Shown here: piece after piece, positions 5,153 to 39,330 of the stretch
Layout of the letters: each line of letters starts with the position of its first letter
How positions within the stretch are numbered: the first letter of the stretch is position 1
From: a virus
Strand: one strand, 5' to 3'
IMG/VR virus record: IMGVR_UViG_3300042914_002334
Coordinates: 62,001 to 126,000 of that record
Length of the DNA stretch: 64,000 nucleotides
Notes under the pieces: generated by a model
What the model was told of the DNA's origin: nothing
What the model saw: the letters and a program-made list of their open reading frames with translations, nothing else
Database searches by the model: none
Program-made: the position numbers and the translations under genes

Positions 5153-5530
5153 TCTAATGATTTTTTTCAAAAACTCACTGTTTCTCATCCATTCATAACT
5201 GTGTTGTCATACGCAGGACAAGAATACATAGGAGTGATTCAGAATCGTGATGATTTCATCACCACCTTCTATGATTACGGAACAATAGTAGATCAAAATC
5301 TAAAAAAGACCTTCTTATCACTCGGTGATCAATGGTGGTGGGAAAGCAACAGATTAATTCCCATAAACATTTTTTTGCGTGACGATTGGAGCGTTTTTAG
5401 ACCGTATCTCAGAACATTCAATAACAAAGGTCTTTCTATACTGCACGGGCCAGCAACTTGTATCAGTGAATTGGCAAAGAAAAGAGTAAAGCGTAAAAGT
5501 ATTACGCTGGTCAAAAGAATTAGCCACTAA
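5150..5530 (+). CDS. Conserved T4-like protein, unknown
   Basis: 126 aa from the ATG at 5150 (MSNDFFQKL). A TTG 21 bases upstream is in frame but unsupported. The middle has a striking GDQWWWESNRLIPINIFLRDDW segment (split here as GDQWWWESNR and IPINIFLRDDW), and the C-terminus is basic (AKKRVKRKSITLVKRISH). From memory it is a conserved hypothetical of cyanophage-type genomes. It is a lone plus-strand gene inside a minus-strand region and its last 11 bases overlap the end of 5520-6083. No function is assigned. Confidence 0.75.
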   Translation: MSNDFFQKLTVSHPFITVLSYAGQEYIGVIQNRDDFITTFYDYGTIVDQNLKKTFLSLGDQWWWESNRLIPINIFLRDDWSVFRPYLRTFNNKGLSILHGPATCISELAKKRVKRKSITLVKRISH

Positions 5531-35113: not shown

Positions 35114-35121
35114 TATTTATC
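35114..35121 (-). promoter_or_regulatory. Late promoter octamer for gp20
   Basis: GATAAATA, 18 bases upstream of the ATG at 35095. Confidence 0.55.
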
Positions 35122-37540
35122 ATGACATACTGTGAGTAAGTAGTTTTCCTTGTATGTTTCTACTTGATGTTAGAGTGTCTTGTATCGCTCTGAAGTTTTC
35201 ATTGTTGGATTTCATTTGTTCGATGAGTATTTCCAAATTTGAATTTGTTTCTTCCTGAGAATTTTTTAATTGAGACATGCTGTTCTTTATTGTTTCAGAA
35301 AGATTTGATATCTCAAAGTCAGTTAGCATTCCAGGCCCATTAAATGCTTGCCCTTTTATTTCAACTGGTATAGTTTTGCCGTCTGGTAGTGGGACTACAG
35401 CCTCTGGACCTGCTTCTCCTGCTATAGAAATTCCTCGTGTGATACCGCCTTTGGCCATCAACTCAGCATGAAAGTGATCTCCTGTTCCGTGTTTTTGTGT
35501 GTGATATCCTTCTACTACTTTTGCAAAACCAAGGTCTTTTAATACCTTTGTTATCGCAATTGCTTCTTCTTTTGTTGGTTTTGGATCAATTGTAAAATCA
35601 ACGGCTTTTCCTTGTCCATGTGCTTTTCCTTTTCGATCTTTATACAGATCGTTAAAAGCAGTTATAGTTGTTCCAGGATACATTTTGACAAATTGTTTCA
35701 TTTTGTCAACGACTTCCTGACTTACATCCCCTCCAGCAACCGACTCGTCGCTTTTAATTTTTAATCCCTCAAATCGTTTGTCACTTGCAGTCAATTTAGC
35801 GCCCGATGCAGATGGGCCCGCTGATGCTGCTTCTGTATCTTTTCTTCGTTCTGCTTCTCGTTTTTTGAATTCAACTTCTACTCTTTTTTTTGCTTCTGCA
35901 ACTTCTCTTTCTTTATCTTTTAATTTTTGTTGCTGGCGAGAAATTCTTGAGTCTGACTGAACTGTGGTTGTCTGTTCTTCTGGGCTGGCGGGAGTAACTT
36001 GTTGAGAAGATTCTTTTATTAAACTATTTAATGTTTTTCGTTCTTCTGTTTCTTCCTTCATTGCTTTTCTTAAATCTTGTCTTGCTTTTACATCTGCCGG
36101 CAAATCTTTTCCTACCCAATCATAAATTTTACTAATAGTAGCGTCTACGGCAGTAGCCATTCCTTCGATTGCCCAAGTGGCACCCTCACTACTAACCATT
36201 AGTTTATCAAGATTTGCCGCGGCATTGTATAATTTTTGTTTTGCATTAGCCAACTCCGCATTTTGTCCTTCTGTGGCTTTAAGATTTTTTTCTCTTTCTT
36301 TTATAATTTTTTCTGCTTGTTGCGGAGTTAGTTCTCCACGATTTACCATATTTCTTAATTGAGCATACTCCTTGGTGTATATGGATGCATCACCAACGTG
36401 CTTGGCGAGTTGTGTTATATTTGGAATAGTCTGCTTGGCTGCTTGTTGAATTAAATTAAATCCATCGGTTGCTTTTAACGTTCCCGATCTTATTTTTTCA
36501 ACTATTTCTACGCCCATTCCACCAGTTTGCATAACAAATTGTCTGGCTGCTTCAGTTCCCACACTTCCACTCATCATGTCGCGAAGTCCCTGTGCAATCG
36601 AGTCAGCACCTGTTGATTTTAGTACTACGTTTAAATCATTTGCCGCATCTTGAACATCTTTTGGCAAATCAGCAAGGGCAGCAGCAAATCTGGTTTCACT
36701 CATTGCCTGATCGCGAATAGATTGAATGTCTTTTTTCTGCAATCCAGTTAGTTTGCTTAGAGTATCTAATTCTTTAATATATGCTTCGGTCCCCTCTTTT
36801 AAATCTTTAGTATTTTTATTTCCAATCAAGCCCCATTTTTGCTGTTGACTTAAGTATGTGAGTTGATAATCATTAAAATCACTTACAGAAATACCAAGTT
36901 TCTGAAAGTTTTCTCTCATGTCTCTACTTTCAATTGATATATCTTCAAATCTTTGTCGACCGCTTACTGCACTTCCGCCAAATGCCGCAAGTTCTTTACT
37001 AAATTTCGTAAGTATTTTAGTGCTATCACTAAAATTCATTCCAGTTCTGTCAACGGTGTCAGTTAAATCTTCAAACTTCTCAAGCACTCCAGATGAAGCA
37101 AGTTGTTCAAAATTTCCATATGCTTTTTCAAAACTCTTTAGTAACTCTTGAGCGATAGTTCCTGCTACTTCTACGCCTGCTTTTGCTATATTTCCAAATA
37201 TAGGAACAACGGAAGATATTGCTCCAGCAAGTCCAGATAACCCTTTTGTTGCTACTGATACTAAGCCACTAAGTGCAGTAAATGATCCGGCGGCGCCCTG
37301 TATTTGATTTGAAAGAGACATGACCGTGTTTGCATATTGCACGGTCGCTTGTTGCATTTTGTTGAGATTTTCTTTTCTCTTTTTTAGTTCCTGTTCAGAA
37401 AACCCAGCACTTTCTCTCAGTGAGTCGGTTGCCATTCCCCCAGATCGACGAATCGCAGTTCCAAATTGATTTATAGCACTCGATGCACTTATTATGTTTT
37501 CGATTGCTTCTTGAATTGATTCGGGTGAATTTGTAGCCAT
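35120..37540 (-). CDS. Tail tape-measure protein with embedded M15-type peptidase
   Basis: 806 aa. The N-terminal ~450 residues are helical with a hydrophobic Gly/Ala stretch (~60-130). The ~480-590 region is charged coiled coil. Residues ~600-695 look like a D,D- or L,D-peptidase of the M15 type: HGQGKAVDF (H641, D648) and DHFHAE (H689/H691) as zinc ligands. Then comes IAGEAGPEAVVPLPDGKTIP, the GEAGPEAVxPL end motif of many tape-measure proteins. It sets tail length and could digest the wall on entry. The divergent gp26/gp51-like genes next door fit the role of chaperones for this protein. T4's own gp29 lacks such a peptidase. Confidence 0.85.
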   Translation of the reverse strand: MATNSPESIQEAIENIISASSAINQFGTAIRRSGGMATDSLRESAGFSEQELKKRKENLNKMQQATVQYANTVMSLSNQIQGAAGSFTALSGLVSVATKGLSGLAGAISSVVPIFGNIAKAGVEVAGTIAQELLKSFEKAYGNFEQLASSGVLEKFEDLTDTVDRTGMNFSDSTKILTKFSKELAAFGGSAVSGRQRFEDISIESRDMRENFQKLGISVSDFNDYQLTYLSQQQKWGLIGNKNTKDLKEGTEAYIKELDTLSKLTGLQKKDIQSIRDQAMSETRFAAALADLPKDVQDAANDLNVVLKSTGADSIAQGLRDMMSGSVGTEAARQFVMQTGGMGVEIVEKIRSGTLKATDGFNLIQQAAKQTIPNITQLAKHVGDASIYTKEYAQLRNMVNRGELTPQQAEKIIKEREKNLKATEGQNAELANAKQKLYNAAANLDKLMVSSEGATWAIEGMATAVDATISKIYDWVGKDLPADVKARQDLRKAMKEETEERKTLNSLIKESSQQVTPASPEEQTTTVQSDSRISRQQQKLKDKEREVAEAKKRVEVEFKKREAERRKDTEAASAGPSASGAKLTASDKRFEGLKIKSDESVAGGDVSQEVVDKMKQFVKMYPGTTITAFNDLYKDRKGKAHGQGKAVDFTIDPKPTKEEAIAITKVLKDLGFAKVVEGYHTQKHGTGDHFHAELMAKGGITRGISIAGEAGPEAVVPLPDGKTIPVEIKGQAFNGPGMLTDFEISNLSETIKNSMSQLKNSQEETNSNLEILIEQMKSNNENFRAIQDTLTSSRNIQGKLLTHSMS

Positions 37541-37594: not shown

Positions 37595-38419
37595 ATGAGC
37601 AACAATCCATTAAAACAATATTTTCGTCGCCCTGCTATTTACATCAAATTGCCAAGTGAAGGCAAGTATTACGACAAGTCTGTAGTAGAAACAACAGAAA
37701 TGGGCGATATTCCAATTTACCCAATGACTGTACTGGATGAAATAACAAGCAAAACTCCAGACGCCGTTTTCAACGGTCAAGCAGTAGTAGACATCATACA
37801 TAGTTGTGTTCCAAACATAAAGAATGCGTGGGAAATAAATGTAATAGACTTAGATGCAATTCTTGTTGCAATCAAAATTGCAAGTGCCGGAGAAAAAATG
37901 GGTGTCTCCACGGTTTGTCCACAATGCTCAACTGAAGCAGAATATGATATCGATCTCATACAAGTATTAAGTAATCAAAAGAATGTTGATTATAGTGTTC
38001 CATTAAAGATTCGAGAGTTAGAAATAAAATTTAAGCCTCTCACATATTTGGAAACAAACAAAAACAATCTTGCTCAATTTGAATTGCAAAAAGCATTACG
38101 CGATCTTGACGGATACGAAGATTCCGAAGAAAAACAAAAGATAATAAACAAAACAATGCTAAGTCTAAACAAAAAAGTTGCTGAAATTGTCGCTGCAACT
38201 ATCGAATTCATTAAAACTCCAGAATGTGTAGTATATGAAAAAGAATATATTGCAGAATTTTTAGAAGAATGTGACAAGATGACTAATAGTGCAATCAGAG
38301 ACAGAAGCGTTGATCTAAAGAGTCAAAGTCAATTGAAGCCGCTTCATCTTAAATGTCAAAATTGTTCTACTGAATATTCACAACAACTAACTCTAAATAT
38401 AACCGATTTTTTCGATTAA
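37595..38419 (+). CDS. 26: Baseplate hub/tape-measure chaperone, T4 gp26-like
   Basis: 274 aa, SD AAAAAGGAC. The N-terminal YFRRPAIYIKLPSEGKYYDK and IPIYPMTVLDEITSKTPDAV match the T4 gp26 family. Two CxxC pairs (C108/C111 and C254/C257) probably form a zinc ribbon. It ends ITDFFD. The last codons contain T TTT TTC followed after 5 bases by a 9-bp stem, predicting a -1 frameshift into the gp51-like frame. It diverges from the tape-measure gene. Confidence 0.88.
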   Translation: MSNNPLKQYFRRPAIYIKLPSEGKYYDKSVVETTEMGDIPIYPMTVLDEITSKTPDAVFNGQAVVDIIHSCVPNIKNAWEINVIDLDAILVAIKIASAGEKMGVSTVCPQCSTEAEYDIDLIQVLSNQKNVDYSVPLKIRELEIKFKPLTYLETNKNNLAQFELQKALRDLDGYEDSEEKQKIINKTMLSLNKKVAEIVAATIEFIKTPECVVYEKEYIAEFLEECDKMTNSAIRDRSVDLKSQSQLKPLHLKCQNCSTEYSQQLTLNITDFFD

Positions 38420-38457
38420 AGCTTCTTAAACTCGATCACGCAGAGATGAAGAAGCTT
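38405..38457 (+). other. Predicted -1 programmed ribosomal frameshift site
   Basis: Slippery heptamer T TTT TTC at 38407-38413, read in frame as GAT TTT TTC GAT TAA. After a 5-base spacer, AAGCTTCTT (38419-38427) pairs perfectly with AAGAAGCTT (38449-38457) across a 21-base loop. A -1 shift continues FFRLKLLKLDHAEMKKLG into the gp51-like frame and gives a product of about 349 aa. Confidence 0.8.
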
Positions 38458-38643
38458 GGTGATGACATGTGGCGTGAAGCACTTAATATCAGATCAGTTG
38501 CAATGAAAATGGCTTGGTATAGCCGTGGTAGCATGCAGTATGTCGATGTGCTCAATTTAAGCACTGACGAATTTAATCTGTTCAATAAACTAATAGATTC
38601 CAATTTGGAAACAACTAAGAAATCAAAACTGCCGTTCTTCTAA
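38446..38643 (+). CDS. 51: gp51-like hub assembly extension (frameshift partner of gp26)
   Basis: 65 aa if started at the ATG at 38446, product MKKLGDDMWREALNIRSVAM and so on, ending KSKLPFF. There is no good SD (only GCAGAG upstream). The frame is open back through 38407, where it meets the slippery site at the gp26 stop. Expression as a gp26-gp51 fusion is therefore likelier than free initiation. The cassette resembles the lambda G/GT tail chaperones. gp51 and gp26 are both needed for T4 hub assembly. Much shorter than T4 gp51 (249 aa). Confidence 0.75.
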   Translation: MKKLGDDMWREALNIRSVAMKMAWYSRGSMQYVDVLNLSTDEFNLFNKLIDSNLETTKKSKLPFF

Positions 38644-38665: not shown

Positions 38666-38700
38666 TTGCCAGATGCCTCTTTGAGGCATCTGGCAATTTT
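38666..38700 (+). terminator. Strong rho-independent terminator
   Basis: 14-bp stem (38666-38679 with 38683-38696), TTT loop, then TTTT. It ends the gp26/gp51 unit. A smaller AAACGAG/CTCGTTT hairpin overlaps its left side. Confidence 0.92.
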
Positions 38701-38805: not shown

Positions 38806-38813
38806 TATAAATG
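38806..38813 (+). promoter_or_regulatory. Late-promoter-like TATAAATG before structured region
   Basis: One mismatch from TATAAATA, on the plus strand about 10 bases before the first hairpin of the structured-RNA candidate. Confidence 0.35.
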
Positions 38814-38819
38814 TAAAAC

Positions 38820-39330
38820 TCTGAATTGCTCAGTTGAGCGAAGCGACAGCGGAGTGACTGAGCAATTCTGGCGGAAGAGCGCAGCGAAACCGCCACTAAG
38901 ACAGCATTATTGACTGTAGTTATAACGGATAAAACTCGCTCAGTTGGAAGAAGAGACTTCATCATCCTCCCCCTTGTTCTTTGAAGACGGCTATTTTTCA
39001 CCGTGGGAAGAACGTTCGTCGAACCACCAAAACCCTTTAATTTTTTGCCCGTTGATCTGTCAGGCGCAGTTAGAGTCTGGCCTAAGGACGGGAGCATCGG
39101 TTCCGAATCTATTGAGTAAATCCATACTCCATTCGGTGCTCCCCACTAGTTTACCCACTGTGATCTTAGTATTGTCCGATCTTCAACAGTGCTTCTCCGT
39201 AAGCAGTAGAGGCTGTACTTACAACGTTTCTAGTTATTTTATACAGGTCTGTTGTTTGACCTGTGCTAATCTACCTTTTTCGTAGACCCATTGATCACTG
39301 TAAATATCTTACAGTGAAAGTTTCTTTTCT
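38820..39330. ncRNA. Candidate large structured non-coding RNA
   Basis: About 500 bases without a convincing gene but packed with perfect or nested stems. These are 38823-38834/38857-38868 (12 bp), 38869-38874/38890-38895, 38976-38981/39008-39013 enclosing 38987-38990/39001-39004, and 39090-39096/39137-39143 enclosing 39103-39108/39131-39136 enclosing 39114-39118/39125-39129. Further stems are 39156-39161/39186-39191, 39199-39206/39213-39222, 39243-39249/39258-39264 and 39296-39303/39309-39316. Strand is uncertain. Plus is favoured by TATAAATG upstream and a T-rich tract after the last hairpin. Minus is favoured by hairpin 38823-38868 followed by AGAGTTTT. I see no tmRNA, RNase P, group I/II intron or tRNA signature. 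Confidence 0.55.

Follow-up and report, generated by a model that had tools for sequence, protein, structure and literature searches.

Phages lambda and P2 carry slippery sites in their tail assembly chaperone genes, G_GGA_AAG in lambda G/GT and T_TTT_TTG in P2 E/E'. What they share with the locus described here is organisation rather than demonstrated sequence homology. In other phages the same logic takes different forms. G-T frameshifting has been reported as conserved among long-tailed phages 'except T4' (Atkins et al. 2016, PMC5009743), and a listing in PMC3004832 gives T4 gp26 and gp51 as chaperones of hub assembly. The two-gene tail chaperonin of phage 0305phi8-36 (PMC2147016), from an unrelated lineage and with no frameshift found, is an earlier precedent in which a short and a long paralogue stand in for frameshifting, like T4 gp26/gp51. 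The chaperones of Vandenendeviridae and Andersonviridae use a -1 frameshift at GTTTTT (PMC12846349); they share with our locus a poly-T slip and a -1 extension that usually goes unannotated, but the motif differs, and the likeness drawn here is one of logic. In addition, Sullivan et al. (2010, PMC3037559) noted that gp51 of cyanophages and marine vibriophages is short by the first ~200 residues, and that gp51 is missing in Aeh1.

In the passages of later papers that cite it, the study of Vladimirov, Gautam & Davidson (2022, Virology 566:9-15) is credited with the short and long chaperone genes of T4 and with slippery sites of poly-T type in its relatives, the T4-like phages. In PMC10885494 it is the reference for T4-like phages in which a longer fusion gene accompanies a short one. 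We read these citing passages as referring to gp26/gp51, which is supported by the paralogy described below; on this reading, the short and long isoforms are shared with the present locus. The initial annotation of our sequence knew of no documented frameshift in gp26/gp51 of T4-like phages, a statement superseded by the credit given in these later papers. With the principle in print for T4-like phages since 2022, our finding is a well-supported further case of a known strategy, to which a covarying stem and the extension to far-T4 and jumbo phages are possible additions.

The window analysed here is a stretch of 64,000 nucleotides, bases 62001-126000 of a 141,002-base IMG/VR virus record. Unlike T4 with its two genes, this phage belongs to an uncultured far-T4 lineage and has the frameshift form of the pair (Table 1). 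The gp26-like ORF ends GAT TTT TTC GAT TAA, placing T_TTT_TTC in X_XXY_YYZ phase, and the -1 frame is free of stops from 38374 to 38643. Fusion across the slip is predicted to give a product of 349 aa with the same N-terminus as the 274-aa short form, which is the lambda G/GT logic that the initial annotation had proposed. Direct reading also bore out its placement of the heptamer, its 9-bp perfect stem after five bases, and its open -1 frame leading to a product of ~349 aa. Compared with lambda G/GT and P2 E/E', the locus differs in having a divergent presumed tape measure gene and a stable stem.

Table 1. Features of the gp26/gp51 locus, in window coordinates.
Feature	Position	Strand	Evidence
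gp26-like gene, putative short chaperone isoform, zero frame, 274 aa	37595..38419	+	PF12322, phrog_150, AlphaFold2
T_TTT_TTC slippery heptamer	38407..38413	+	Read directly; kept in relatives and named phages
5-nt spacer, heptamer to stem	38414..38418	+	Read directly
Zero-frame stop TAA, one sense codon past the heptamer	38417..38419	+	Read directly
Stem 5' arm, 9 bp, AAGCTTCTT	38419..38427	+	Folding and chance tests
Stem 3' arm, 9 bp, AAGAAGCTT	38449..38457	+	Folding and chance tests; equivalent stem covaries in a related clade
-1 frame extension FFRLKLL...LPFF, gp51-like C-terminal segment of the putative long isoform, 76 aa post-slip	38407..38643	+	Conservation, third-position bias, hhalign, helical prediction
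Intrinsic-terminator-like hairpin just past the -1 frame stop, closing the gp26/gp51 unit	38666..38696	+	Sequence
Probable tape measure protein, large ORF of 806 aa, divergent	35120..37540	-	Position as in relatives; conserved divergent ORF

Taken by itself, the locus is suggestive of a real signal. T_TTT_TTC occurs in phase just once among the 43 ORFs of the window (16,094 codons), but heptamers of the general X_XXY_YYZ type are common (78 in phase in the same ORFs), making a heptamer weak evidence on its own, and we rejected counting as evidence. When positions in the window are picked at random, 0.6% are followed by a stem of 9 or more Watson-Crick pairs, and 0.06% have one at a distance of exactly 5 nt; a search of Rfam returned no match for the stem. 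The stem region was more stable than synonymous-codon shuffles (z -2.75, p about 0.005), whereas dinucleotide shuffles gave only z -1.59 (17/200), and we therefore turned to comparative tests.

Six scans of viral contigs, together with isolate records, yielded 221 loci with an intact junction; at three more, the sequence stops short of the stop codon and the junction is unreadable. All 221 loci keep the heptamer, as T_TTT_TTC in 219 and T_TTT_TTT in 2, and all have an open -1 extension, 57-77 codons long. This conservation is decisive, and the signal lies well beyond chance. Substitutions in the -1 frame are biased to third positions (5301/2861/8824), and the -1 ORF is under protein-level selection. 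The junction alignment across far-T4 relatives that the initial annotation had called for also supports the stem, which was assessed on the 73 non-redundant junctions left after dropping those at least 90% identical. In 60 of these representatives the downstream RNA beats synonymous-codon shuffles (z<-1.64; mean z -3.14). The alignment of one 35-sequence clade contains a 13-bp stem with 91.9% of its cells paired, compared with 36-55% when slid, and shows compensatory changes, 22 cells being altered on both sides, compared with a shuffled mean of 5.8. At 5 nt, the stem of the window lies within the distance of about 5-9 nt looked for in a frameshift stimulator. The stem is not universal, however, since the RaK2/GAP32 clade and HTVC008M have a weak one or none by the folding null. 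Members of the GAP32/RaK2 group (L022, L024, L229-L234) keep the heptamer without a strong downstream stem in the folding test, so that stimulation of the frameshift must differ or be weaker there.

The gp26-like identity proposed at the outset was confirmed by profile searches, in which the body of the gene matched PF12322 (4.9e-16, above the curated cut-off) and phrog_150 (2.6e-17); the 141-kb record has no second PF12322 copy. T4 gp26 and gp51 both match PF12322 (8.8e-64 and 3.9e-52) and are thus paralogues. In alignment, the frameshift fusion finds its contiguous counterpart in T4 gp51, gp26 ends just past the slip position, and the residues at the slip (FFR..L) align with VFKLL of T4 gp51. 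The C-terminal region of T4 gp51 matches phrog_634, the family of cyanophage 'gp51' ORFs, which elsewhere are the -1-frame ORF. Because the -1 segment of the window itself has no match in Pfam, PHROG or Rfam, its link to gp51 had to rest on profile comparison: with hhalign, the far-T4 and jumbo phage segments match, over 34 columns, the C-termini of gp51 from T4, from cyanophages and from others (prob 90.9, E 1.1e-6), and the segment family matches T4 gp51 alone weakly, at the expected place (221-247; prob 3.3, E 0.013). The gp51-like assignment is thus supported by profile comparison at the level of the family.

AlphaFold2 predicted the gp26-like body with a mean pLDDT of 90.5 and a pTM of 0.85, and an all-helical -1 C-terminal segment with a mean pLDDT of 89.1. 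The structural relatives of the body are predicted gp26/hub-assembly proteins. No solved structure matched the body model at E<=0.001, and hence no solved tail chaperone such as HK97 gp13; likewise, its sequence profile found no credible relative in the PDB, and the C-terminal segment matched nothing among viral structure models at E<=0.001.

The signal is present in nearly all tested distant relatives that have the gene pair in two frames. T_TTT_TTC is carried by S-PM2, P-SSM2, KVP40, Aeh1 and phiW-14, and by the jumbo phages Phosso, Atu_ph07, GAP32, CBB, RaK2, PA5oct and XaC1, while HTVC008M, Cr30, phiM12 and pf16 carry T_TTT_TTT. Most records either annotate the -1 segment on its own, under the name 'gp51' or as hypothetical, or omit it. 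T4, RB43 and CP81 have a contiguous gp51-type gene in addition to a gp26-type gene, without the two-frame form. The check set by the initial annotation, on relatives that lack the heptamer yet keep gp51 with a strong SD of its own, came out in favour of frameshifting: phages with the gene in two frames have the heptamer, the exceptions seen being Salmonella phage Vi01 and Rhodothermus phage RM378. In Vi01 (L249), a gp51-like C-terminal ORF lies in the -1 frame without a canonical heptamer (GAA ATT TTC ATT TAA). In RM378 (L046, around 2160-2389), which fell outside the 221-locus search result and was read separately, the gp26-like gene contains TTT TTT T and the C-terminal segment lies in +1; this suggests transcriptional slippage, or a frameshift of +1 (or -2), in place of -1. 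Campylobacter phage CP81 (L256) has two neighbouring gp26-family ORFs (235 and 224 aa). One of them bears a gp51-like C-terminus, and the two may stem from a duplication independent of the one in T4.

Together, these data argue strongly that the gp26-like gene and the -1 segment are one gene, which very probably encodes a two-isoform, lambda G/GT-like tail assembly chaperone made by -1 frameshifting. At the level of sequence, the slippery site, the stem, the open and selected -1 frame, conservation, homology and paralogy establish the coding arrangement and its selection, while slippage and how often it happens, the function as a chaperone and the partners bound are inferred from lambda G/GT and T4. 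Most ribosomes would stop at the zero-frame TAA and release the short form; a minority would slip back one base on T_TTT_TTC, aided by the hairpin downstream, to make the long form, which would end in an additional helical segment of gp51 type. If the analogy with lambda G/GT holds, the tape measure protein would be coated by the short form, and the tail of the long form would help to load tube or hub subunits. In T4 and RB43, the same pair of proteins comes from two paralogous genes, gp26 being the short and gp51 the long one.

The -1 segment could instead be translated as a separate short protein, gp51, initiated inside the overlap or beyond it, either at a start of its own or by re-initiation coupled to termination of gp26. 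It is so annotated in the GenBank records of S-PM2, P-SSM2, KVP40 and HTVC008M, the window offers an ATG at 38446, and Vi01, with no heptamer, might work in this way. The -1 starts of the window, though, have no Shine-Dalgarno-like sequence before them, in agreement with the initial annotation, which had seen no good one for this segment, and such a sequence precedes any -1-frame start within the first 35 codons in only 5 of the 73 representatives; with no consistent ribosome-binding site, we rejected the separate-start model. The FFR..L block, conserved at the slip and continuous with T4 gp51, moreover lies upstream of the usable starts, and an independently started gp51 would leave the invariant heptamer and the stem unexplained. 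We consider it very unlikely.

A fusion frame could also arise in the messenger, by transcriptional rather than ribosomal slippage on the T run, and this too has some appeal given T runs of 6-8 and the case of RM378, in which a T run is followed by a C-terminus in the +1 frame. Six T's closed by a C are, however, short for polymerase slippage, and the fixed phase of the heptamer and a stem 5-6 nt downstream with compensatory changes are as for ribosomal -1 frameshifting, which makes a transcriptional origin highly improbable. As for a pseudogene, a sequencing error or a chance overlap, we found nothing in favour, and repetition of the arrangement in 221 loci and many isolate genomes reduces the probability of any of them to almost nil.

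Frameshifting in gp26-gp51 offers an explanation for earlier observations on gp51, which would appear shortened in cyanophages and marine vibriophages, and missing in Aeh1, because the frameshift splits the gene. A broader scenario, which as a whole we put forward tentatively, is that a frameshifted gp26-gp51 was ancestral in T4-like phages and in jumbo phages of the RaK2/GAP32/Atu_ph07 type. The 'short' or 'missing gp51' annotations in cyanophages, KVP40, Aeh1 and jumbo phages would then be mis-split single genes, the two-gene forms of T4/RB43 and of Campylobacter phages would be separate duplications that made the frameshift unnecessary, and the hairpin would tune the isoform ratio by lineage. 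Frameshifting by -1 at this locus would extend to uncultured far-T4 and jumbo phages the strategy of two chaperone isoforms familiar from lambda, provide an annotation rule for many genomes (join at T_TTT_TT[C/T]), and offer a testable natural comparison of frameshift and gene duplication as ways of setting the chaperone ratio.

The genes around the pair are of T4 type and include portal gp20, a prohead protease and major capsid gp23, as well as an SMC/Rad50-like ATPase and a metallophosphoesterase of the gp46/gp47 type and a PDDEXK nuclease. The 806-aa ORF sits between the portal gene and gp26, as in GAP32, CBB, RaK2 and PA5oct, and a divergent ORF of variable length is conserved at this place in relatives. 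It has no Pfam match, and its position and the annotation of relatives make it a probable tape measure protein. Of the proposal that the gene pair adjoins the tape-measure gene, adjacency thus stands and the identity of the neighbour is probable on these grounds, the gene being divergent, unlike in lambda. Near its C-terminus, HGQGKAVDFTI...HFHAEL resembles an M15-type peptidase domain by eye. In HTVC008M, the co-oriented order is tail tube, gp26, gp51 and an annotated putative tape measure gene, and KVP40 has tail tube, gp26, gp51 and a large ORF, also co-oriented; both match the order V-G/GT-H of lambda. In S-PM2 and P-SSM2, the pair is co-oriented upstream of a large ORF.

Further downstream in the window, positions 38810-38905 contain two strong non-coding hairpins (z -3.82), without a match in Rfam, whose loops contain GAGCGAAGCGA and GAGCGCAGCGA. 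In L001, the nearest relative, one such loop recurs near 5373, where the 10-bp stem of the hairpin is a different one.
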